A stretch of 64,000 bases of DNA, from assembly GCA_020744425.1 (NCBI GenBank), contig JAGMUV010000001.1, positions 3,224,001 through 3,288,000 of the forward strand. The letters are read 5' to 3'. The notes beneath the pieces are model-generated. The model made no database searches. It was not told the DNA's origin and saw only the letters and a list, made by a program, of their open reading frames with translations. Position numbers and translations under genes: made by a program. Below, piece by piece: positions 4,086-30,258 of this stretch. The first letter of the stretch is position 1. Every line of letters starts with the position of its first letter. Origin of the DNA: Dactylonectria macrodidyma. Its lineage: Eukaryota; Ascomycota; Sordariomycetes; Hypocreales; Nectriaceae.

Positions 4086-7000
4086 TAATTAATTAACCTA
4101 GTTATAAATAGACTCTTATCCTTCCTCTCTTACAGAACCTTCCTTTACTAAATCCTTTAATTATTCTACTAAGTAGTAAGATTCTTTTAGTTTCTAATAT
4201 AATTATCACTCCTTTAGCTATATATTAATTAATATAATATCAGCCTATAATTATATAGTCTATATATTATAGCTCTTTAAGTTATTAAAAAAGGCATTAT
4301 TAATAATTATTATTTTTTTCTATTTCTCTTTTTAATTAATTCTTTTAATAAGACTTACTCTATTTTAATTTCTTAAATTATATTCTTATTTAATAAAGCT
4401 TATAAGAATAAATTCTTTTAAAAGATATAATAATTAAAGATTATTAATTAAATAAGCCTTTTGTAATTAGGCTAATTAAACTAAGACTTTATTATATATT
4501 TTAAACTAAATAGATAAAATGCTCTTTATAGCTTAAGAAGTAGGCTTTAATCTTCTTTAATTCTCTTAGTTAGTATATATTATATTAGGGCTGAGAGCTT
4601 ACTAACTAGAATGACCCGGACTTTTAATTAGCTAACTAATCTGAATGCTGGTCTTAATAAAGCTATTAATAAAGATAACTAGAGTTAGTCTAAGATAAAA
4701 GGCAGAGATAACTTAGATATAGATAGTAATTAATTATATTCTTACATACCTTTATTTTTAAGTTATTAAATTATTTTTAATATTATTATAATAATATTTA
4801 TTTAATTAACTAGAATATCTGATTTATTTTCTAGCTAGTTACTTAATTATAGCTCTAGCCTTCTTTTTATCTATTTTATTTTATAAGTCTTATCTATTTT
4901 TACTTTATTATGCATTCTGCTTACTTTATAGCATCCGTTACTTTAAGTAATAGTATCCTTCTTATCCCTCTACTTAATATATTTTAAAGGTTATAGTAAG
5001 GTAATAAGCTATTAGTTTAATTAATTAATTAATCCTATTAATTAGTAGATTAATTAAGTAAGTAGTAATATTTTTAAGCTATTATAAAGACTTAAGTTAA
5101 GTATAGAAAGGGAGGTAGTATAAGTAAGTAAAGATATAGGATTAAGAGGATATAGAATATTTAATTAACTTTAAAAATAATCTTACTTAATACTTTTAAT
5201 TTAAAAATATATAATATTTTTAGTTAATTAATTAATTTTATTAAAGATAGAATAGAAATTGCCTTTTACTCTTATTTATTATATTAATTTATAATAGATT
5301 TACTATTAATACTATAAAGCATTTTATTTAATACTAATATTACTCTAATTATACTACTTATAATTAAAGCTAATATAAAAGTAAGGTAAAAAGCTATTAT
5401 AAGATAAAAGGTTAAGACTTAAGAAAAGTTTAAACTCTTATAAGTAATTAATTAAATAACTACTAATAATCTTATTATAACTATTTACTTAAAAAGCATT
5501 AAAAGTAAAGGATCTAAACTATTTATATTATCCTTACTATTTAATATTCTAATATTATTAATAATATTATTAATTATATAATTAGCTATAAAAGACTTAT
5601 TAATTACTTTAATTATTTTCTTTAAATAGATTTATATAAAACTCTTTTAATTCTTAAGACTATAACTAAGGATAAAAATAAGCAATTTAGAAAATATCTA
5701 ATTTTTAAAGCATGCTTTTACTTTCTAACTTTTATATTTACTTAATTAACTGATTTTATAATAATACTCTTTACTAAGTTATAGAACTCAGTCTAAAAGG
5801 CAATAAAAAGAGTAGTAATAAACTTATCCTTAGTTATACTTTATAAAGATATTATCCTCTTTAATACTAATATTATTAACTAATAAGTCTATAATAATAA
5901 TACTTATAGTAAATATTTTAAAAGTAAAGCTTAATTATATTACTTTAAGTATTCTAGCTTAAATGCATTCTTTAGTATAAAGACTAAGATATAAATTTAA
6001 TAAATTAAATATCTTAGCTTATATAAAAGCCTTTAAAATTATTATTAAAAATAATAGAGTGCTTAAAGAGTAATAGCCTTTATACTTTATCTATTTCTAT
6101 ATAAATAATAAAGTAAAAGCCTTAGTCTAATTAGCTATTTAATAATTTAAATAGATAATAGTTAAGATGAATTTAATAAATATATTTAAAGGCTAAGATT
6201 TAGACTCTAAGGATACTCTAGAAATAATACTTAGTTCGATAAATACTATTTAGATTTTAGAGACTGTTAATCTAAGTTCTATTTAATAACTAATATACTA
6301 TTACTCTTTCCTTATAATAATAGTTTATTTAAAGGATTTAAAGACTTCTTATTAGTCATAAGCCCTTTATTATATCCTACTCATAGAACTTATATAATCA
6401 GTTTATATAAAAAGTAATAAGAGTCTGACTGAGTTAGGTTAGATAGACTATAAGACTTTATAATAATATATCATTTCCTATTTAGATATAGATATAGCTA
6501 TTAGAGAACGATCTAGTCTTAGCTATTTATTTAATTAAATATAATTATAGTCTATAATAACTCCTTTTAAACTAGTAACCTTTTAATACTTATTATTACT
6601 AGCTTAAGTCCCTCCTTATAGAGTATAAATACTTACTAACTTAACTATTCAGTTATCTTTAGTAACTACTCTTAATAACCCTATTAATAACTTAAAATAT
6701 AGCTTTAAGTTATTATAAGTTCACTTAGCCCTAATAGAAAAGACTAACTAAGACTTAGTTATAATAATCTAGTACTAATAAAAAAGCTATAGAAAATATA
6801 ATAAAGCTATAAGGAATATTATAATTAGCTAAGTCTTAGTAAATCTATTTAATTAATTAAATAATAAATCCTCACTTATAATTAATATTACCTTATTATT
6901 TAATAAGGCAAAAGGATACTAATATTATTAAGTCTTAGGTTATTACTCTAACTAATATAAATACTTAATATATAACTTTAAAAAAGAGTATATAGAATAT

Positions 7001-17799: not shown

Positions 17800-18775
17800 T
17801 CACCAAACCTTTCCAGCATCGCATTCCCGAGACACGTAGCCTGCTTCCACTTCCCCAGCTCCTAGCCTTTCATATCCCCCCCAACCTGGTTTCTCTCGAA
17901 CAACAAGGATGTAGTAAGTCCTCTGAAGGTCTTTCTTCCAGTATTCGTCGCCGCTCACGCCAACAACAACACAATGTCTGAACTCAATCTGGTCCGCCAC
18001 ATCGAACCATAAAAACCCCACTTTCTTTGTATCATCGAAAATGGCATACTCTCTCTTCCTTTGTTCCACCCGGCAATTTTCAAATTGCCTTATTTTGGCG
18101 ATTAACGCCTTCCCATCGTCAGCAAATCCAAGATCCGCAGATTCCGGTACCAGGAGAGGCCGCCCCGCACCCGAGATAAAGTCAATACCTCCAGAATATG
18201 CCATCCAAGACCATGATGGCACCATTCGATCTCCGTAGTCAACCGGGGCCTTCTTTTCCTCATCGGTCCGCTTCCACAGGAGAAGGTTACTGAGAAAGCA
18301 ACTGATGATCCCGTATCTCGCTTCAGTCTCTAACACATGTCCTATGCGCTTGATCAGGCTGTAGATTGCAGTATCCCTGTCGGATTCAACGGTAAGACCG
18401 CACTGTGAATACTTCTTGAAAAGGAATCGGACAAAATCAATGGCATGTGAATAGCCTGACTGCTCGAGTCGACTAGGAAAGTAGGGATCGAGAACGAAAC
18501 GTTGCCTTCCGGGCGGCCTGGAGTAATGTGAGAACAGAGCGCGCGTATAACCTTTGACTGCAGACTTACGGTTCCAGTTTTGTAAACTGTTCGCATCGTA
18601 CTCCCTTCCCGCACTCCCAATACGTATGTGTCGCAGCAAAATGGATAATTCGGCGGGATAGCACACGTTCTTGCAGGACCCAAGCTCTATTGCTAAGGGC
18701 TCCTCTATCCACATCTTGGTTGAAGTCGCAAGCACAAGCCGATCTACCCGGAACACCTCGGATCCCAATATATTG
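17800..18775 (-). pseudogene. HET-domain gene, 3' half (cut off by hAT insertion)
   Basis: Continues the HET protein beyond the transposon. After the insertion point the frame reads GIRGVPGRSACACDFNQDVD then RGALSNRAWVLQERVLSRR, the classical 'RGWVLQERLLS' block of HET proteins, with HFAATHTYWECG. A 52-bp intron at 18,518-18,569 (GTAAGT...CAG) joins exactly in frame to PPGRQRFVLDPYFPSRLE. Later blocks include FLFKKYSQCGLT with DRDTAIYSLIKRIG and RMVPSWSWMAYSGGIDF, also typical of the family, ending at a stop at 17,800. The reading frame is clean: no stops or RIP damage. The half lacks the HET catalytic-like N-terminal region, now 4.6 kb away at 23.4-24.0 kb. Confidence 0.88.
18518..18569 (-). 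other. Intron in the HET 3' half (52 bp)
   Basis: The donor GTAAGT (first base 18,569) follows GAACC and the acceptor CTCCAG ends at 18,518. Reading through gives an immediate TAA. Splicing restores P-PGRQRF in phase 2 and the family's expected sequence. Confidence 0.85.
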
Positions 18776-18796
18776 CAGGGGTCTGCATCTACCCAC
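18768..18796. repeat. hAT left end: 8-bp target duplication plus TIR
   Basis: ATATATTG (target copy) is followed by CAGGGGTCTGCATCTACCCAC. The TIR differs from the right end at one position in about 20. Confidence 0.92.
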
Positions 18797-18999
18797 TTCT
18801 ATCCACAACCACCTCAACAGTGATAGAATAGATGACTTACTAAGCCGACCTGAAGTTGAATTGATAGAAATAGACCCTATCTATCAACGTAGATGCAATC
18901 TACAGTGATACAGAACGCCTTAAACGCCACACCGGATCAAGGATATCCCGCTAGTATCAGCCTTACAATCCCTTAACGCTATCATCAGACCATCCACCC

Positions 19000-21480
19000 C
19001 CATTTCCCTCATTAACCTGCTGGCCCAGTTCATCCTTAAGCGCCTCGATCTCTGTACTCCTAAGGGCGATCCTATCGTAGTCTTCCATTAAGCCGGCCTT
19101 AATCCATGATCTGATCGTCTAAGCGGTAGAGATCATATCTATTCTAAGTTGTGTCCGCCGGATTGTGACTATAGATCTAGCAGCTGAGAAGGTCCTCTTA
19201 TACTTAGCGGACATTAGAGGCATATTAAGTACGTTAAAGGCCATCTTAGCTAGCCGGGGATATTTAAACTAGCGTTCTATCTAGTACCTTACTGGATTAG
19301 CCTTTAGGGAGAGCTCTAACTCCTAGATAGAGAGTAGCTAATGATTTAATTCATTAGCTAGTAGTATAAGTGCTTATAATCTACTACTAAGTTTGCATTT
19401 TAAGCAGATAACTCGCTCTTCTTTATTAAGATCTAAATCTTCTAAATTTATAAAAGTAGGAGATAATACATTCTAATAAGGATTAGGATTATAATCTTAA
19501 TATTACTATACCTAAAGATTATAGACTATCTTCTTTAACTTAGCTGCCTATTTATTACCTCTCTTCTTAGCTACTTAAGCTTTAGAGGGTAAGAGGCCTT
19601 AAGTAAGCTAATCCTTAAGGGCATTAAGAAAGTATCTAAAGCTAAGGCCAGAGTAAAGGACTATAGTAGTATAGTATATTAGTAACTTAGTAATCTTAGC
19701 TTAATATGAATTAAGCTTATCCTAAGTAGTATTAATATAGCTTTAATAATAATTCAGCTCTAAGTAACTTTATACTTTAATCTTAATATTTTTAAGCTTA
19801 TAAAGAAGGTACTTAAATGATAAGAAGACTCTTTAGATACTACTAAGCTGACTCTTCTTACTTTTATAATGAACTCAGAGCTGGTTATCGCCTTCTAGCT
19901 TCTTAACCTGCTTCTTAAAGTGCTTTAAGATATTATAAAACCACTGGATTGCATTCTAGTTATCCTTATTAAGAAGGTTCTTATTATTAAAGCATAATGG
20001 CTTCTTGCTTAATAGATAGAGACCTATAAGAAGACCCCTCTAGCATTAAAAATGAGATTGCCTAATTATAAACTATAAAGCCACTTTACTAATAAGTTCT
20101 TTAATATATGGCTATAGATTAAGAGCCCATTATATTATATAGAACTAAGAGAGCTACTAAGTAGTATTATTAATGACTATATTAAGGATCCTAGGGCAGC
20201 CTGCCTCCTTCTAGATATTGCGCAAGTAGTCCATTATTAGCTAAGATCAGTGTATCCAGACTATAAGATTGTGTAAGCAGCTAATAGGTCCAAACTTCCT
20301 CTAGCTATCAAAGTCATTAATATCAATACCCTTAAGGAGATAGTATTCCTTTAGAAATAATAAGGCACAAGTCACTAAGTTAATAATATGCCTAAAGTAA
20401 TAAATCCAAACCTAGAGAGGGTTAAGACTATTAATCCCCTTAAGCACTAAAAGCTTTACTAATACTATATCATTATTTAAAGCATTATTAACCATAAAGT
20501 AGCCTAGTTGCCTTAAGTTAGTTACTAGACTAAACTCCCTTAAGACCTTTATGACCTAAGTAGCGATATTAACCCTAGTATGATTCCCTTCTATATAAAG
20601 TAGATTAAGGAGAACCTTCTTTAGCTTAAACATAGTAGAATTAAAGAACTAAGCATTAATAGTAAAGAAACCATACTAATTATAGAATATCTATCTATTA
20701 AAAGCAATATAGACTTACTTAGGGCTCTATATTAATACTTCTATTATCTGGCTCTTATACTTATAATAGTTATATAAGATCTGTTTCCTAACTGCCTAAA
20801 AGCCTGGCATTGCTTATTAGATTATAACTTAAGGGTTAATATAGTAGAAGGCAGTATAGAGGGCTAGGTTGCTAGTAGTAGTAAAGAGCAGGTTAGTCTC
20901 TATAAGCCAGTTAATAATTAACTGCCTAAACTTCGTCTTATTAAACTGCACAATCTGACTCTATTTAAAGGCTTCTTCTGCTTTTTATTTTCTTATAAAA
21001 GCATTAATTGTTAGCTGCCTTTATAGTATTAACTTTCTCGGCTTATACTTAGCGGCTTGCTCAGGGTCTTCTAAGAAGATCTTATGCTTACTTATTAGAT
21101 GCTTATATACATTCTCCGGATTCATAGCAAAGAGTGTATATAGATCTTCTAGTAGTATCTTTATAAAGGAACAGACCTTATAGAACTAATGGATCACCTT
21201 CGGATTATCTTTCACCCTTTAGACTTAGAAGCTATAGTCCTAGAACCACCTTCTTATTATTCCTTGCTTCGTTATAAGGCATATAGTATTATCTCTAACC
21301 TTATACTATTAAGGGATATTATCCTAGGTCTAGTGGCTGTCAGGGGGGTCAGAGGATAAGGTGATACTGGTCTTACTTAAGGGAGGGTTCGGAGGGTTAG
21401 AGGACGGCTAGTTAAATAGTCTAGAGGAAGATAAGCTGTCTTAAAACATCTTAGTAATATTAATTAGGGAGATCTTAAGG
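19000..21480 (-). pseudogene. hAT transposase relic
   Basis: Reading the minus strand from about 21,480 downward gives hAT-type blocks interrupted by TAA/TAG. These are an N-terminal NPENVYKHLISKH stretch at about 21.1 kb, then FTTTSNLALYTAFYYINPQ at about 20.9 kb, NSTMFKLKKVLLNLLYIEGN with HTRVNIAT at 20.6 kb (family pattern 'G-x-H-x-G-x-N-I-A'), and LGYFMVNNALNNDI at 20.5 kb. The last is normally 'GYF-x-x-DNA-x-NND'; here the conserved first Asp of DNA reads Asn, a G-to-A change. Stops fall mainly where CAA, CAG or TGG are expected. Not functional. Confidence 0.85.
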
Positions 21481-23160
21481 GATTTAAGGAAGAATTGGAT
21501 ATGATCTCAGACTGCTATTAATTAAGGTAAGAAGAAGGAAGACATTTTAATAAAAGCAGAGAAATTTATATAGTAAAAACCCTTATTAGGCTTATAATAT
21601 TATAAGAAATACGATAAGATGCATTTATTAATTATTAAAAACATAAGGAAAAGCTATTATTTAAGACTAATTATATATATCTTTTACTCTAGCACTTGCC
21701 GCCCTAGAAGGCCTAGAAGGGTACTATAAAGTCCACTTATATTAATACTGCAAATAATCAGCTATAGTCTAAAAATAATAATCAATCGACTTATATCATT
21801 TTTCTAAATTGATTAATATTAGCTTTATAGTCTCTAGATGATTTTTTTATACTTAATTAATTTATTTTTTAGTATTAGGCTTATCAGCCTTGTCTTTAGG
21901 CTTATTAGTAGAAGGATTATTTAGTAGCTAAATTTTAGTATAGACTGCTTACTCTGCTTATTATAGGGTATGCACCTTAGTATCCTTCTAAATAACTACT
22001 GACTTAAAATCTATATATCTTAAAGAACTAGTTAATAAGGCAAGGTATAACTAAGTAGCTAGTATAATTAAATCTAGTGAAATTCTCTCTATATAATAAT
22101 AAATTTATCTTCTTTACCTAAGCGCATTATATTATTTATATTAATATAGACTAGAAAATAGATAAGTTTCTTAAGAGATACTAACTATAAAATTAATAAT
22201 TTAAGCAGGCTGCTAACTAAGGTGCTTAGATCTAAATGAAAAATACATTAATTAGCATTATTTATACTAAAAATTACTTCTTTTAAATAGAATTATCTTA
22301 ATCTTATTATATAGTATAGTCTAGTAAGGCATTAGAAGTTATAATATTTTACTTAATTACACGTATCTCTAGCCAAGTAGTAAACACGCCAGACCACTAT
22401 AAGGCTAAAAAACCCACCCAGAGCGAGTTCTTATATAAAATAAGATTAATATAGTCTTATATTACTAACTAACTTAAGTAAAAATCAGAAGGAAAGCCTA
22501 TAGGGTTATAGGAGATTTCCTAATAGAGCTTAAGTAAGACGGGTATTATAAGCACGCTCACCTTACCTAAGCTCAGTTTCTCCTTTAACCCTCCTTAGCT
22601 TATTTTATAGTAGTATTCTATTAATCCTACTACGCCCTAGCTCTAGAGCCTAAGTATAATGACCTAAGGTATAGTAGGATTATTAGAACACCTTCCTTTC
22701 CTTAAGGCATCTTCTTCCTAATCTTACTAAGGCCCTGCTCTAAGGATTAATTATAGAAGATAGTTATTAATAGTCTTTAGTAAATAAGAGTAAGTTAGAT
22801 TAGGTTAAATAGCTAAGGAAGGGAGTAGTTAGATTACTTTTATCCTACTATACTACGTTATTAAAAGCAGAGTGATTTATTATTATATATATAGTTAGGT
22901 AATTATTAGGGAGTATGCATACTATCTAATAGATTAGCTAGCTTAAGAATAGAAAGATTAATAGAAAGGAGGCAGGACTAAGCTACTCTGCCTACCTAGT
23001 TCTATCCTTCTATACTATATACTATTAGTATATTTCCTATATATTACTCTATTTAGGATACTTATCTTTATCTATTAATTACTTTTTCTTACTTATATTT
23101 ATATTATTAAGCGATATTAATAGTAGTTATTAATCTACTAGTCTACTATAAAATGGATAT
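21481..23160. other. 5' part of the hAT element, no coding block recognised
   Basis: RIP-mutated and stop-rich in all frames. It lies between the transposase start and the right TIR and presumably held the transposase 5' region and sub-terminal repeats. No domain could be read. Confidence 0.4.
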
Positions 23161-23397
23161 AACTATCTACATAGGGTGCCTCACGAAATTGCTAGCGTTA
23201 TGAGGTTTTAGTATATCATTTGCTTACCAGATTACTAAGCATTTAATATATATATATATCGATGATTCTTAGCAATCTACCCACTTGAATCTACGTTAAT
23301 AAGGCTGTAGTAGAGGGGATAGAAGCTTGGCAGTAGGCAGGGTAGAATGGGTAGAAAGCACAGCTTTCTATCAATAGTAGATAGTGCGTCTACTTTT

Positions 23398-23427
23398 GGT
23401 GGATAGATGCAGACCCCTGATATATTG
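23398..23427. repeat. hAT right end: TIR plus 8-bp target duplication
   Basis: GGTGGATAGATGCAGACCCC with TG, then ATATATTG. The reverse complement matches the left TIR CAGGGGTCTGCATCTA exactly for 16 bases. Confidence 0.92.
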
Positions 23428-24024
23428 GGAATCCAGGCCCCGCTTAAGGAAGCCATCTCCCCAACCACCCGCTGAACTCGCTGCAATGGTACAGAAGGCA
23501 GAGGCGAAGACGTTTTCCATTTCCCCAGCCTCTTTTTGCCAATCGCCGTCGTCTCCTTGAATTATGCAAACCGAATCAATCCAGAGATATTGCTTCCCAA
23601 GTTCTCGAGTCGTCCGAACCGCATCCTGAAACGTCTGTGGTAGATCATCGCAGCTGAAACCCTGCAACCGCTGTTGGTGGGTTTCTCGAGTGGTGCAGAA
23701 TCGCTCCTTTTCTTCATTCGTTGGAGCACCCCAGCAGTGGGAGAGCACAACATAGTCCCCTCGCGTAGCTTGGTTCTCAACGAGTGTCAATTTATTGGGC
23801 TCACCAATAAAGATAACCCTTGTCGGCCAATATTTCTCTCTTCCTTTTGGCAACTTGCATTTATCGTGCTTTTGGTCGCAGTCCCAGAGCCACTCGCGCA
23901 ATAGCTGGAAGTATGGAGAGCCGACAGTAGAGTCGGGGGAGACAGCATCTTCGGAAAGGATATTAAATGGTAGTTTGTTGAAAAATTGTCGAGCAAACAG
24001 ATGGTCAATCTCACGCCTCCAAGA
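23420..24024 (-). pseudogene. HET-domain gene, main 5' exon (HET core)
   Basis: The exon begins after an AAG acceptor at 24,025 with SWRREIDHLFARQF and contains the HET domain (Pfam PF06985 by recognition). Its blocks are YFQLLREWLWDCDQKHDKC, PTRVIFIGE, GDYVVLSHCWG, LPQTFQDAVRTTRELG and YLWIDSVCIIQGDDGDWQKE, then AGEMENVFASAFCTIAAS. HET proteins trigger vegetative incompatibility and cell death in filamentous fungi and are often TIR- or NLR-linked immune-like sensors. The frame is open up to the transposon, where translation would run into the TIR and stop within about 20 codons. Combined with the 3' half, the coding length from here is 507 codons including the stop, a whole number, which supports recent insertion into an intact gene. 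Confidence 0.9.
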
Positions 24025-24090
24025 CTTGGGAAGAAGGACTAGCGTTAACATGACATGCAAGAACATAAAACATGAAAAATATATACTTAC
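24025..24090 (-). other. Last intron before the HET core exon (66 bp)
   Basis: Donor GTAAGT (first base 24,090) and acceptor CCCAAG ending at 24,025. A GTTAAC lies about 20 bases upstream of the acceptor and can serve as branch site. AAG is a weaker acceptor than CAG or TAG. The body differs from the repeat units. Confidence 0.55.
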
Positions 24091-25366
24091 CTCCTAAACC
24101 TAGAGTCAGTAATCATCGCCATCTCATCCATCTCAGAGAGGTCCACTTACATCCTATACCAATAAGAACACGCCAAAGTCAACAACCATCGCTTTCTCGT
24201 CTATCTCGGAGAGGTCCACTTACATCCTATACCAATAAGAACAGACCGCCGTCAGTAACCATTGCTATCTCATCTATCTCAAAGAGGTCCACTTACCCAC
24301 TATACCAACGAGAACAGGCCAGCGTTAGCAACCACCGCTTTCTCGTCCATCTCGGAGAGGTCTACTTACATCCTATACCAATGAGAACATACTAAAGTCA
24401 GCAACCATCGCTGCCTCGCCCATCCCGGAGAGGTCTACTTACATTCTATACCAAGAACAGACCGCCATCAGCAACTATCGCCGCCTTATCCATTTCGGAA
24501 GGGGCCACTTACCAACTATACCAACAAGATCAGACAGCCATTTGAAATCATCGCTATCTTTTTCATCTCAGAGAGGTATACTTACGAACTACCCCAATAA
24601 TCACACTAGGGTCAGCAACCATCGTTATCCCTTCCATCTTGGAAGGGTCCACTTACATCCTACACCAAGAATAACATATCCAAGTCAGCAATCATCGCCA
24701 TCTCATCCATCTCAGAGAGATCCACTTACACTCTATGCCAACAAGAACACACAAAAGTCAGCGACCATCGCTTTCTCATCTATCTAGCAGAGGTCCACTT
24801 ACATCCTATGCCAACAATCACACCATAGTTAACAATCATCATCGTCACGTCAATCTCAGGAAGATCCACTTACCCGCTACACCAGCGAGCACATTAACGT
24901 CAGCAATTATGACCATCTTGTTCATCCCGGAAGGGTCCACTTACATCCTTTAACAATAAGACCACGCCAAAGTCAGCAACCATCGTTTTCTCGTCTATCT
25001 TAGAGACGTTCACTTACAAACTATACCAGTAATCACACTAAGGTCAGCAACCATCACTATCTCATTCATCTCGGAAGGGACCACCTACACACTATACCAA
25101 CAGAAACAGACTGCCATCAGCATCCATCGCAGAGATGTTAGGAAGATCCACTTACCCGCTACACCAACAAACACACCAAGCTCAGCAACTATCACCATCT
25201 TGTTCATCTCGGAAGGGACCACTTACATCCTATACCAACAGGAACAGACTACCATCAGTAACTATCGCCACCTCGTCCATTTCAGAGACGTCCACTTACC
25301 CGCTACACCAACGAACACACCACAGTCAGCAGTTATCATTCTTTGCTCACATGATGCACATACCTC
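24091..25366 (-). repeat. Tandem array of 18 intron-like units with 3-nt spacers
   Basis: Eighteen units of 60-73 bp (mostly 73 and 71). On the minus strand, the HET direction, each runs GTAAGT, about 40 bases of body, a branch-like RCTRAC/GCTGAC in most units, about 20 bases, TAG, then three bases and the next GTAAGT. Donor first bases lie at 25363, 25299, 25226, 25155, 25088, 25017, 24944, 24873, 24802, 24729, 24656, 24585, 24512, 24442, 24369, 24296, 24223, 24150 and 24090. Seventeen of 19 donors are GTAAGT; the others are GTAGGT and GTATGT. Acceptors are TAG in 18 and AAG in one. The three bases vary freely (GAT, CGG, TGG, TTG, TTC, AAT, AGT, TTT, TGT, GAG). All length differences lie inside the bodies, none in the junction. 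Reading: a chain of tiny introns separated by one-codon exons. Confidence 0.85.
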
Positions 25367-25424
25367 CTATACATTGTGATTAACGTCTGCGAATGGGGTG
25401 TGTGAAGCTTAACTGTACACATAC
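25367..25424 (-). other. Predicted intron upstream of the array (58 bp)
   Basis: Donor GTATGT at 25,424 and acceptor TATAG at 25,367, followed by the microexon GAG and the first array donor. Branch candidate GTTAATCAC. Body sequence is not obviously a copy of the repeat unit. Confidence 0.45.
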
Positions 25425-25427
25425 TAG

Positions 25428-25483
25428 CTGTAACTTGGTTAGATCTAAATGTTATGGTTTGGCTGGGGCTTAAGACCCACTAC
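25428..25483 (-). other. Predicted first intron of the HET gene (56 bp)
   Basis: Donor GTAGTG at 25,483 (alternative GTTTGT at 25,487), branch CTAAC 11 bases before the acceptor TTACAG at 25,428. It is followed by the three bases CTA and another GTATGT donor, the same TAG/CAG-NNN-GT arrangement as the array. Confidence 0.4.
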
Positions 25484-25717
25484 AAACGTATGATGAATCT
25501 GAGACGCTTGCTTATCTCGAGATGCCATATCTAATGACTTAAGTTTCGTACCAGGCTTGAGCATCTCTGGCAATCGAGAAGTGGACGGCCGATCTAGCTT
25601 TTTATCGTCCGAGGTAAGATTAGGCAGAAACCCACTAACGCGAAAAGCCGCCGGGGCCTCAGCTCCGCCACAAAGAGGGCTGGATTGACCTCTCAAAAAA
25701 TTTTCATCCACACCCAA
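25484..25717 (-). CDS. Candidate first exon of the HET gene
   Basis: An ATG at 25,717 opens 78 codons to a possible donor at 25,483, leaving phase 0. The sequence (MGVDENFLRG..., later LDRPSTSRLPEMLKPGTK and ASQIHHTF) matches no domain I know. Support comes from position, from phase agreement with every microexon and with the HET core exon, and from a promoter-like CRE and TATA pair 120-146 bases upstream. Without splicing the frame stops at 25,445. It could instead be an unrelated short ORF. Confidence 0.35.
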
Positions 25718-26331: not shown

Positions 26332-28876
26332 CTACGACAAGAAAGACCTAAGTAATTCTGCGGTAGCAAAATGGCCATTATTCGATGCCCTTCGCAAAGC
26401 ACGCTCGTACTGACCTCGCCCAGACTCCGAAATATCTGCGCCGGCATTCTTTAGTAGCTGCACCATATCAATCCTTCCATGCTCTGCGGCACCTTCTAAT
26501 GCCGTGCGTCCTTCATTTTCCGCCGGTTCCGCATCGACGTCGGCTCCCTTTTCCAGCAGGAGATGCGCTATACCGACATAGCCACCAATGGCAGCAAATT
26601 GAAGTGCCGTAGCGCCAAAATTCTTTGCTGGCGGCAAATTCACATTTGCGCCGTACTCGAGGAGGACTTCCACAAGCTCCAAGGAGCCATCCCGACACGC
26701 AATCTGCAAGGGACCGTGCGGACAGTGCCTTGTTGTTGCGTTTGGGTTTGCTCCATGTTGCAGGAGCGCCTTGAGAATTTCACAGTTCTTCTCCATTGTC
26801 GCGTTCTGCACACTAGTTCCAATGGGGTGATTTGTGCGTAGGTTCCCGGAATACCACTGGTAAGTCTTTGTGCAAGACGAGACGATATCCGGATCCTGGC
26901 CATGGCTCAGAAGAATTCGGACGGTTTCCGGGTTCCCTTCAAAAGCTGCCAGTTGCAATGGCGAGTAAGCTGTTTCTGGCGGCAGTTCTTCATTCGTCCT
27001 TGCTCGCGTCTCGAGGATGATCCTCACACACTCAGGATCTCGCTGATGGATTGCTTCTAGAAGAGTTGTGTATGGACCGCGGTGATTGTCTTCGGTAAGG
27101 GTGTCGGGGTTTGCGCCAGCGTCAAGGAGTGATCGCAAGAACTCCTGACGGTGAGCTACAGATGACTTAAGAGCGTGATGTAAGCTGTTTGAGAAGGCAC
27201 GTACGTCAACAATGTTACTCTGTAAGATCAGACGGAAATTATTCAAGTGGCCTCTATCCACAGCCGTTTGGAGAGCCACGTGCAAGGTATTTCTTCTGCC
27301 TCTTCGCTCCTCGGTTGATAGTTTCTCCACGAGCAGCCTGAGCAAGACTGAATCTTCATCATCCGCAGCTGCCTTTAGAGCAAGCTCATCGTTCACTTCA
27401 GCTCCTTTTTCGATAAGCCACTCAGCAGTCGAAATCATTTTCCGTTTTACAGAAGCCCAGAGAGGCGTTTTGTATGGCAGTCGTCTGTCGTGCTGGCTGC
27501 TGGGGTTTACCGATGCTCCGAGTTGCAGTAATTGGTCGACAATCGCCCACTGTTCTTTGAAAATAGCTGCAGCAAGGGGAGAGCACCACTCGCCGAAAAA
27601 GTAGTGGCGCCCCAAGCTGTCTCGAGAGGCATGTGCCATGAGGAGCTGGATAATATCGTGATCTCCGCAATGGATTGCTTTGACAAGGAGATTTCCTCTC
27701 TTCGGAGTTTCGACTTTTGCTCCGCGGTCCAGTAGTTTTTGGACGAGTTCTCTGTGTTCGCCTTCGATGGCAAGCATTAGTGGTGTGTCCTCCGTGTCCC
27801 CCGCGTTCACATCAGCGCCAGCTATTAGGAGCACATCTACCGTCTCCAGGTGGCCCTGACGAATTGCAACTTCAATCGAAGAACCAAGGGCCGATGCAAG
27901 AGAATCTTGAGGCAAGATGTTGCTTTGAAGCAAGCAGACAAGCGGATCCTGACAGCCTCCGGCGCAGCACTTTTTAATCGCCTCTCGTAGGGCGCTGCAG
28001 TTTCCGTCGATGTTTGAGCAATCGTATGATCTGGTAAGGCTTTTGAGGCCGGCACACGCTCCTATCCGTATTGCAGCCAAGATCATAGCCCTCCTCTTCT
28101 GTGTCTCCGTTGCCCTTCGGGATTCCATATACCAAAGCTCATCGTCTGTCGTTGGCCATTCGTCGGGAGTGACAGCCCATTCTGGAAAGTCGGCTTCTGA
28201 TTCCAAAAGTTGACAGAATGTGTCATAGTCCTGTGCTTCGATGGCGGTGTCGAATGAGTAACGCGTTGGTTTCGCACCTGCGGACCACAGGGCGTCGATC
28301 AGGTCCCTGTCTTGGGCGAGGATACCAAGATCAAATGGCGAGTAACATTCAAGGTCCGGATGCTCCTCGCAATAGCCGTCGCAAGGATGGCAAGTCTTGT
28401 GATCATTGACGTCCACTCCAGCCATGATGAGCCTCTTCGCGGCTTCAAGTACCCTCGAGACTTTCCTCGGATCTCTACTCCATCCCAAGCGATCCGCTAG
28501 TGTTTCGCACGTGCCACGCCCATGGACCACCGAAACGAAACGCTCTGATGAGTTGTAGAGGCATTCTCGAAGTGCTGACCGAGCACCGTCGATATGGAAG
28601 CTAATCTCAGCGCCCTTGCTAATGAGGAAGTCGACCAGCTCCGGACATCGGAATGATGATCCCAAGGTCAGGGCTGAGTGCTTCTCACATATTAAAGAAT
28701 ACCAGCGGTACTGGGGGTCTGCTGTCTTGCGCCATTCTTTCAAGGAATATTCCGTGTTGTCGGGGTCCGCCGCAATTGCGTTAACGTCCGCACCGGCGTT
28801 CAGAAGTTCATGAATCAGCGTCAGTAATGCTTCCACTTGATATCGTTTCTGTTCAGTACTGAATTTTGTGGTATTA

Positions 28877-28912
<36 letters not shown>

Positions 28913-30258
28913 CCGTCGTTGCTGTCCGAAACGTCTCTGGCGCCGGTCCCAACAGCTTCAATGGTGGCCTCCTCGGCAAGAGGACGACTCCAAAACTCCC
29001 CAAAACAACCATAGATAGCGAAAAGTAACGGACTACAAGACCATCCAAATTCCGGATAGTCAATTTGCGCTTTAGCTCGCAGCAGTTCTTTGACCAATTT
29101 CAAGTTGCCATTGAAACACGAGTATTGTAAAGGCCGGAGAGGAATTGGACATCCTTCATGCACGCAGTTGTTCGCGTTCGGATCTGCTCCTGCGTCGAGA
29201 AGAGTACTCGCCAAAAGAACGTCCCCTTCTTCGACGGCTAGCCGAAGTAGACCTTGGAGAAGTGCTTGGTTTGATGGATCTTGGAGCAGTCGAATAATGT
29301 CTGGGCCAAATGTACCCAGACTCATAAGCCATCTGTAGATTTCCTTCCGGTTGCCATGGCCTGGGAAGTTGTTAGAGATCGCGTAGGCCATCACCTTGAG
29401 TATCTGAGTGGATGTGCTGTGGTAGATATTGTCGAGGGTAATGCTTGAGCCAGGCACCTCCTTTTCAAATGCCGAGATTGGTAGGAGTGACCTAGCCGCA
29501 ACAAGGATGCGATCAGACGTCGAGCTCTCGTGGTTTCCGCACAGGATGGAACCCATTGTGGAAACACTTGCCGTGAACGGCGGGGGGGGTTCTTCAAAAT
29601 TGGTGGAGTCAGCAGGTGGATCCCTCAAGCGATATCCAAATTGCCATCTTACCAAAAAAGATCAGCGTGGACCGTAGAAATTGGAGAATAGGTAGCTCCT
29701 GGAACACTCTCCGAAACACAGGATAGGGAGGAGGGGTGCAGATCTGGACGCCAGCAGGTGTCGCGGGCGATGTTGCTGCATCAGGTTCTACAGAGTTGTT
29801 AAGCTGGAGTGACAACTGGAAACGACCTTCTTCAGCAATAATTACCTCTCGCCATGTGCAACCTCTCTAAGGTTGTCATGTAGCCATGACGGGATGACTC
29901 TTTCCGGACCTTTGCGGCAGGTACTAGCGCTCCCCTCCAGAACACGTTGCTTTCCTTTCCCTCCAGTTTTCGTTTACCGAGTCTTGACGTGATGATCGGG
30001 TAGTTCCCTCCGGGCATATTCTTCTCAAAACCCCATTGCTGAAATCGATATTCGTACTGGCGTTTGCTAAGATACTGTTAGTTGGAAAGCTTTCTGCCGG
30101 GGAATTATAGGAGCTTGCCTTGCACGGAAGCCGTAGCGAAGTTTCATCTTCTCGATTACCCCCGAGGGCCCGCACAAGGGAAGATCCTCAAGGATATAGA
30201 GGGTATGGATAACGTTCCTCCATCGCTCCCACTCCTCAGATGTAAGAGACATCGTCAT
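26332..30258 (-). CDS. Clr5-domain ankyrin-repeat protein, four exons
   Basis: Exons 30,258-30,119, 30,066-29,846, 29,787-29,653 and 29,591-26,332 give 1,251 codons plus stop. The N-terminus is a Clr5 domain (residues about 4-62): SEEWERWRNVIHTLYILED, EKMKLRYGFRA, then after the first intron SKRQYEYRFQQWGFEKN. After a low-complexity linker come many ankyrin repeats from about residue 280 to the end, with typical TPLMLAIEGEHRELVQKLLD and LLEKGADVDA signatures, and an acidic DDGDDDDDDDDD run near residue 395. Clr5-ankyrin proteins are abundant in Pezizomycotina; their role is unknown, probably protein-binding scaffolds or incompatibility-type regulators. The start is the ATG before TMSLTSEEW. 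Intron 1 appears to be GC-AG. The gene is not RIP-damaged and has no internal stop. Intron 3 uses an AAG acceptor and is the least certain. Confidence 0.85.
29788..29845 (-). other. Second intron of the ankyrin gene (58 bp)
   Basis: Donor GTAATT, branch CTTAAC, acceptor TGTAG; phase 1 on both sides, joining MAR to E-PDAATSPATP. Confidence 0.65.
30067..30118 (-). other. GC-AG intron in the Clr5 domain (52 bp)
   Basis: Donor GCAAGC after AG, branch CTAAC, acceptor TTAG. Splicing turns RARQAPI into R-A-S-K-R-Q-Y-E, the exact Clr5 consensus. No GT donor nearby gives this join. Confidence 0.75.

Follow-up and report, generated by a model that had tools for sequence, protein, structure and literature searches.

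In the present study we describe an array of three-base spacers and short introns at the 5' end of a HET gene of Dactylonectria macrodidyma. We consider it probable that this array constitutes a chain of real spliceosomal introns and one-codon exons, multiplied in tandem, which would furnish self/non-self recognition proteins with a hypervariable peptide. The array lies in the window, i.e., the whole stretch of 64,000 nucleotides analysed here, which is situated on contig C1 of a genome assembly of 77.3 Mb in 77 contigs, and arrays of the same build occur in two unrelated immunity families of this genome, HET genes and NLR genes. In five arrays the donors are nearly constant and the three spacer bases are, column by column, the most variable part of the unit; stop codons are avoided in the spacers.

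Architecture of the array and fate of its host gene

Between positions 25483 and 24025 of the minus strand, 21 introns and 20 three-base spacers follow one another, which bears out the initial annotation of about 21 tiny introns separated by one-codon spacers, and the unit lengths of 60-73 are as it had claimed (Table 1). Both exons flanking the array are in phase 0, as had been supposed for all the microexons: the first coding exon (25528-25484) ends in phase 0, and the HET frame starts at 24024. Read in this phase, the 20 spacers translate to LERDRCFDRDSDFLNDWDDE. By inspection, the HET genes on C2 and C8 have similar starts (MASTGGQ... and MATKFS...), and there, too, the same exon ends in phase 0.

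The acceptors preceding the 20 spacers are TAG in 18 cases, CAG in one and AAG in one, and the donors following them are GTAAGT (17), GTATGT (2) and GTAGGT (1). The earlier count of two deviating positions among 114 is correct for the 19 donors then considered, and becomes three among 120 once the first donor is added. A branch-site motif is present in 18 of the 19 units. The retention of donor, branch site and acceptor in nearly every copy supports the view, already put forward from the letters of the window, of an intron with one codon that was multiplied in tandem, and this view is further backed by the one-codon format in the paralogous HET gene on C8 and in the NLR genes. The tandem-repeat score is higher at a period of 144 than at 73, which implies that units were also duplicated in pairs.

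A minisatellite coding in another frame is ruled out because three does not divide the common unit lengths (68, 70, 71 and 73). The spacer lengths in the 211,513 bases scanned for chains (see below) likewise rule out stwintrons, i.e., introns nested in one another, and exons of zero length.

The HET domain of the host gene is interrupted by an insertion, which we take to be of hAT type from its ends and from the length of its target duplication (8 bp, ATATATTG, at 18768-18775 and 23420-23427). Beyond it, a HET match (C1:3242575-3242730, window 18575-18730) resumes the query at residue 253. Because this element splits the gene, the HET gene of the window is broken, and this copy no longer codes for an intact protein in this strain. 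An ORF of 1,107 aa (26332-29655), in which ankyrin-like repeats were noticed by eye, immediately precedes the HET gene and has the same orientation.

Table 1. Coordinates of the window array, its host gene and short chains elsewhere in the genome (window positions unless a contig is named)
Feature	Position	Strand	Remarks
First coding exon	25484..25528	-	15 codons, MASRDKQASQIHHTF; by eye; ATG at 25528; also within an ORF
Intron 1	25428..25483	-	donor ambiguous, GTAGTG at 25483 or GTGGGT at 25480
Array	24091..25427	-	19 introns (57-70 nt) between 20 exons of one codon
Spacer codons 1-5 (first bases)	CTA 25427, GAG 25366, CGG 25302, GAT 25229, CGG 25158	-
Spacer codons 6-10 (first bases)	TGT 25091, TTT 25020, GAT 24947, CGG 24876, GAT 24805	-
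Spacer codons 11-15 (first bases)	AGT 24732, GAT 24659, TTC 24588, TTG 24515, AAT 24445	-
Spacer codons 16-20 (first bases)	GAT 24372, TGG 24299, GAT 24226, GAT 24153, GAG 24093	-
Tandem repeat	24104..25331	-	TRF: period 73, score 690; period 144, score 856
Last intron	24025..24090	-	GTAAGT ... CCCAAG
HET exon	23420..24024	-	PF06985, E 1.3e-25; cut by the insertion at 23419
Insertion, presumably hAT-type	18776..23419		4,644 bp; terminal inverted repeats CAGGGGTCTGCATCTA... (CAGGGGT)
Rest of HET gene past the insertion	17800..18767	-	ORF
Short array on C24 (L041)	C24:372399-372789		same architecture; one further junction with a nine-base spacer
Seven one-codon exons, HET paralog on C45	C45, codons at 2322921-2323363		N E Y R F T P, then LNDNWDY
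Seven one-codon exons, HET paralog on C11	C11, 1088010-1087581		R D Y G L T N, then LDDSWKY

Recurrence of the one-codon format in the genome

The pattern TAGNNNGTAAGT-N45-62-TAGNNNGTAAGT (TAG-NNN-GTAAGT twice) is matched 88 times genome-wide, and its reversed control not once. All 88 matches fall into six clusters, which hold, when looser donors are admitted, 20 codons on C1 (the window), 9 on C2, 43 on C8, 52 on C15, 4 on C24 and 23 on C52. By their unit bodies, C1, C2 and C8 form one related group (median alignment z 4.0 for C1 against C2 and 3.0 for C1 against C8), C15 and C52 form a second (median z 9.9), and there is no relation between the two groups (z 0.6 for C8 against C15, 1.2 for C1 against C15); the exact three-base spacing has therefore been kept in at least two independent families of units. 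The bodies on C24 are unlike either group (z 0.8 and 1.2).

In the window, on C2 and on C8, the array occupies the 5' end of a HET gene. On C2, 8 stops fall within the HET match, and this copy is a probable pseudogene; the HET exon on C8 has none. The host on C52 is an NLR of SesA-NACHT-type-ankyrin build (SesA PF17107, NPHP3_N PF24883 and Ank, with NACHT PF05729 below the cut-off), and its array is placed between two successive ankyrin matches. The host on C15 is an 84% paralog of this NLR, and its array is flanked, as judged by eye, by phase-0 exons. The array on C24 is flanked by two ORFs that gave no Pfam match, and an ORF near it we take to be helicase-like, of the Pif1/Helitron kind. The genome holds at least 150 HET matches, so that, within the reach of our searches, few HET genes carry an array.

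Introner-like elements, which are dispersed at many unrelated genes, do not account for these units, the 88 matches being confined to six clusters. When the arrays of C1, C52 and C24 and part of that of C8 served as queries in similarity searches, no dispersed copies appeared among the matches listed, these being lower bounds, and a scan of viral contigs with the C8 unit tail gave 0 matches. Among the NLR paralogs, the two on C14 and those on C29 and C19 had no chain within their 9-kb loci. The HET copy at C15:805026 (L049, C15:800500-808500) likewise has no chain; at the place expected for its 5' part there appears by eye a helicase-like sequence, presumably Pif1/Helitron-like.

As a control of the spacing, we scanned both strands of 211,513 fetched bases for chains of AG-N(k)-GTRNGN junctions, spaced at 48-110 nt and with k ranging between 0 and 12. 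Four or more junctions in a row appeared at k=3 only; these chains make up 13 rows (overlapping ones counted) from the window and nine loci, which had been chosen for arrays or paralogy, so that the result is not a genome-wide rate. At k of 0-2 or 4-12 there was no such chain in the 211,513 fetched bases, and chains of two or three junctions numbered 5 at k=3 and 0-6 at other values. "Recursive splicing" in its strict sense, i.e., a zero-length exon with the acceptor joined to the donor, had been offered as one outcome of the array; it finds no support, as the fetched sequence contains no chain of four or more junctions at a spacer of 0. Genome-wide, the pattern with a variable spacer of 0-14 gave at least 186 matches, against at least 127 for the reversed control.

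Chains of one-codon exons also exist where the introns are not repeats of one another. Two HET paralogs, on C45 and C11, each carry seven one-codon exons, followed directly by the exon leading into the HET region, and the residues Y3 and T6 are common to both chains. Their introns are mutually dissimilar, within or between the genes (median z 0.05, 0.44 and 0.39); the CTRAY motif is found in 14 of the 16, two donors on C45 are off consensus (GTAGGA, GTACGG), and one on C11 reads GTAAGG. The exon upstream of the C45 chain has kinase-domain homologs, the best of which join kinase and HET domains, and that of C11 is kinase-like by eye. At the site of the chain, two Fusarium proteins (P0121 and P0122) among 19 aligned homologs read 'PYRTR' or 'RYRTR', and in the other 17 this place is gapped or its residues do not align; the conservation of residues in these chains is suggestive rather than decisive. 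In addition, an NLR paralog on C13 (L046, C13:440500-449500) shows by inspection, at about 4,330-4,745 of the locus, exons of 9, 9, 3, 3 and 3 nt at the position of the C15 and C52 arrays, and this short chain is a possible intermediate.

Constant junctions around variable codons

The array units carry the signals of U2-type fungal introns, namely a GT donor, a CTRAY-like branch site and an AG acceptor. Taking the six arrays together, 140 of their 145 units have a branch motif, usually 22-25 nt ahead of the acceptor; the donors are nearly invariant but include a few off-consensus forms (GTAAGC, GCAAGT). For units with the motif, the first AG past the branch A is the end of the unit in 38/40 cases on C8, 48/51 on C15, 12/18 on C1, 13/21 on C52, 5/7 on C2 and 3/3 on C24; of the 21 exceptions, 20 lie 5-6 nt past the branch A and one lies at 15.

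Equal substitution at splice motifs and body positions had been named as an observation that would speak against spliceable copies. In the window, the donor columns have a mean entropy of 0.13 bit, lower than all 53 six-column body windows, and the spacer columns reach 1.60 bit, higher than all 56 three-column body windows, in agreement with the earlier remark that the spacer bases are among the most variable. The same holds for all five arrays with at least 8 units: no six-column body window is as low as the donor (0 of 46-53), and no three-column body window is as high as the spacer (0 of 49-56). When entropy is taken over whole trinucleotides, the spacer ranks first on C8, C15 and C52, is tied on C2 and is not first on C1 (2.96 bit in the window, the body maximum being 3.54), the latter because the bodies of the C1 array have themselves diverged; in the number of distinct trinucleotides on C8, the body-window maximum equals the spacer's 12.

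Per-site divergence of spacer and body is 0.68 and 0.17 on C8, 0.64 and 0.20 on C15, 0.73 and 0.21 on C52, and 0.67 and 0.36 on C1, the ratio ranging from 1.9 (C1) to 4.1 (C8), and where the bodies of two C8 units differ at only 3-5 positions, the codons are unlike in 88 of 97 pairs. Changes in the bodies are mostly transitions (transition/transversion ratio 1.7 to 3.9) and those in the spacers mostly transversions (0.29 to 0.74), an opposite bias which indicates that a single mutational process does not explain both.

There is no stop codon in 151 spacers, where shuffled columns lead one to expect 7.8, a result reached by 0.015% of shuffles; with distinct codons counted once per array (n=61), 0 stops stand against 3.2 expected (2.3% of shuffles), and such shuffles are non-independent trials, the units of an array being related. 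In composition, the predicted peptide is acidic on C1, rich in E, M and T on C8, and rich in S, E and Y on C15.

The codons behave in a further, distinctive manner. Whenever two spacers of the same array encode the same residue, they do so by the identical codon in 104 of 104 pairs on C8 and 133 of 133 on C15 (237 in total), where shuffled columns would give differing codons in 34 and 24 pairs, respectively; on C1 and C52, codons differ in 2 of 26 and 4 of 22 such pairs, the shuffles giving 4 and 8.5. Codon identity is only slightly associated with the body of the preceding unit (p 0.002-0.018), and less so with that of its own unit (p 0.03-0.64). Since same-residue codons are always identical on C8 and C15, despite differences between the unit bodies, codons in the large arrays act as discrete cassettes that are copied whole, for which shuffling by recombination fits better than stepwise mutation.

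Use of the junctions in deposited gene models

Where the spacers predict EPTVEMDEEMIDEWMMEMRDEWAMIGMT, the public protein for the C8 gene (P0241) has EPTVEM-EEMIDEW-MEMRDEWAMIGMT. Threaded on the C8 DNA by a least-cost path, it takes 40 exons, 36 of them of 3 nt; of the 43 codons of the array, the path skips three and places four inside two read-through exons, of 76 and 65 nt. The first read-through exon shifts the frame, so that 11 of the three-base exons are read out of phase and the remaining 25 keep phase 0. For the C52 protein (P0001), threading with strict donors and a 45-nt minimum gave no path, and relaxed threading gave one in which 14 of 23 spacers are three-base exons, by our count 6 in phase 0, other exons measuring 12, 22 and 31 nt. 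These deposited models show that an annotation pipeline used the array junctions, no more.

Traces of the same units may be visible in other genera. The C8 unit tail, when translated through, reads LLT[PL]VVFGDI, and by eye a Diaporthe sp. model of the same HET clade (P0247) contains GAICLLTLVVFGDI twice, and a Fusarium solani model of that clade (P0250) contains LLTLVVPGDV and LLTMVIFGDI. As this motif corresponds to the C8 unit tail read through, C8-like arrays probably exist in Diaporthe sp. and F. solani; in the other 13 homologs inspected, P0241 aside, the motif was not spotted by eye. The HET proteins of P0247 and P0250 share no more than about 60% identity with the C8 query, and conservation of intron sequence across genera at such a distance would be unusual.

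Discussion

How might such an array arise and be expressed? A unit of one codon and an intron of about 70 nt would first have been duplicated in tandem, and unequal crossing-over and gene conversion may then have reshuffled the units; the difference between 52 and 23 codons in the paralogous C15 and C52 arrays is explicable by unequal exchange between units. Intron definition is favoured where introns are short and bring signals of their own, and if such introns are spliced out in sequence, one codon per unit can remain. The array introns are of this kind, so that they could be removed one after another as transcription proceeds. Since every exon is a single phase-0 codon, units can be included or skipped with the frame intact. 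The transcript would thus carry a string of at most one residue per unit, immediately ahead of the HET domain in the HET genes and flanked by two ankyrin repeats in the NLR genes, and selection is presumed to maintain both the splice signals and the diversity of codons, resulting in a hypervariable peptide. A string at these two positions would fit a part in diversified recognition, comparable to the coding repeats of fungal NLRs as the accessible text of one report presents them (PMC4986451).

Other explanations should be set against this one. The array could be a minisatellite inside one large intron, with internal splice signals that were inherited from the founding intron and are unused, and no codons would then enter the mRNA. 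Tandem repeats in introns are common, and skipping of the whole array keeps the frame open, by inspection, in the window and on C8 and C15. We nevertheless find this quite improbable, for the donors are near-invariant though the C1 bodies diverge by 36% per site, the spacers are free of stops, the exact 3-nt spacing recurs in the unrelated unit families of C1/C2/C8 and C15/C52 and again in the non-repetitive chains, and the deposited C8 model treats 36 of 43 spacers as separate exons. It is less credible still that stepwise splicing serves only to remove a long intron piecemeal and that the three bases are a steric leftover of irrelevant sequence. Such a process agrees with nearly every unit being a complete intron, and the array junctions resemble ratchet points in having an acceptor beside a donor; ratchet points, however, are zero-length exons, and no chain of four or more junctions was found at that spacing in the fetched sequence. 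An irrelevant spacer, moreover, should show stops, other lengths and no excess of variability over the intron bodies, and a stretch made solely of subdivisions would have no need for them.

The exons might also be real and the string unstructured, its composition little selected, with selection acting on the splice signals only. The differing character of the strings on C1, C8 and C15 speaks for such neutrality, as does the identity of all 237 same-residue pairs on C8 and C15, which passive duplication of cassettes would give. Indeed, discrete cassettes are unlike the product of point mutation under amino-acid selection, and to that extent count against the hypervariable recognition peptide that we favour. 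Neutrality, on the other hand, predicts spacers about as similar as the bodies adjacent to them, and the C8 codons differ in those 88 of 97 pairs with near-identical bodies; we therefore regard a neutral string as unlikely.

Beyond the single gene, we tentatively suggest, as a reading that could well prove too broad, that filamentous ascomycetes generally encode the variable part of their self/non-self receptors in a format of one codon per intron. The seeds may have been old, short chains in which each one-codon exon is unique, such as the seven in each of two HET paralogs with kinase-like upstream exons, and tandem duplication would enlarge them to 20-50 units. Recombination between units and alleles would then rewrite the peptide codon by codon, the frame never being lost, and splicing could sample subsets of the string. 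The format would be in use in several genera and in both HET and NACHT-ankyrin receptors, which are unrelated families. It suggests highly variable peptides written one amino acid at a time; the five arrays outside the window have codons different from those of the window, and four of them fall in two immunity families.

Should transcripts confirm them, the arrays would be among the longest chains of one-codon exons known, and would lie in fungal gene families of self/non-self recognition. A recognition peptide could then be changed residue by residue in an unbroken frame, and fungal HET and NLR gene models would likely be wrong at their most variable part. Exons of 3 nt are often overlooked by short-read aligners. 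Splicing research would gain a naturally occurring set of such exons, flanked by short introns, and the codon-sized microexons of one truffle family would turn out to be an instance of a wider principle.

Comparison with known systems

The closest known system is found in a truffle. According to the accessible parts of several papers, the NACHT-ANK (nank) genes of Tuber melanosporum owe diversity to 3-bp microexons, multiple to dozens in number, which are alternatively spliced (Iotti et al. 2012; PMC4986451, PMC3689799, PMC10197012, PMC9815663), and functional microexons are described as previously undescribed in filamentous fungi in the available text of another (PMC11121469). At the DNA level the Dactylonectria arrays share with the Tuber genes, so far as those accounts go, the 3-bp exons in dozens per gene (52 on C15, 43 on C8, 23 on C52 and 20 in the window), and the C52 host and its C15 paralog match the NACHT-ankyrin host type, to which the short chain on C13 may be added. 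Given the 3-bp microexons reported for Tuber NACHT-ANK genes, the C15 and C52 arrays are additional members of a kind already known. The Dactylonectria arrays as a whole differ from the Tuber system in that they also occur in HET genes (the window, C2 and C8), and in a Sordariomycete, and in that the unit sequences, the codon alphabets, the non-repetitive chains and the traces in other genera are described here from DNA and gene models; alternative splicing is what the accessible reports give for Tuber, whereas the present arrays are known from DNA and gene models. We found no report of one-codon chains in HET genes or of non-repetitive chains in the open-access literature, and a subscription paper may hold one.

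With the WD40, ANK and TPR repeats of the Podospora NWD NLRs, as outlined in the portion of the source at hand, the arrays have in common tandem repeats made uniform through concerted evolution, a few hypervariable positions per repeat and a place in self/non-self receptors; the Podospora repeat, however, is coding throughout, and the Dactylonectria repeat is an intron with a single codon (PMC4986451). Strings of tiny, mostly frame-preserving exons that vary a protein are also described for the Schistosoma MEG genes, where, in the passages available, the exons measure 3-81 or 6-81 bp, mostly 15, and the introns up to 5 kb (PMC10526429), in contrast to exons of exactly 3 bp and tandemly repeated introns of about 70 nt in Dactylonectria. 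Finally, introner-like elements and stwintrons are likewise multiplied, sequence-similar spliceosomal introns of filamentous ascomycetes, but, according to the part of the source available, they are dispersed at many genes or nested (PMC8469720), whereas the Dactylonectria units stand head to tail, un-nested, at six places in the genome.
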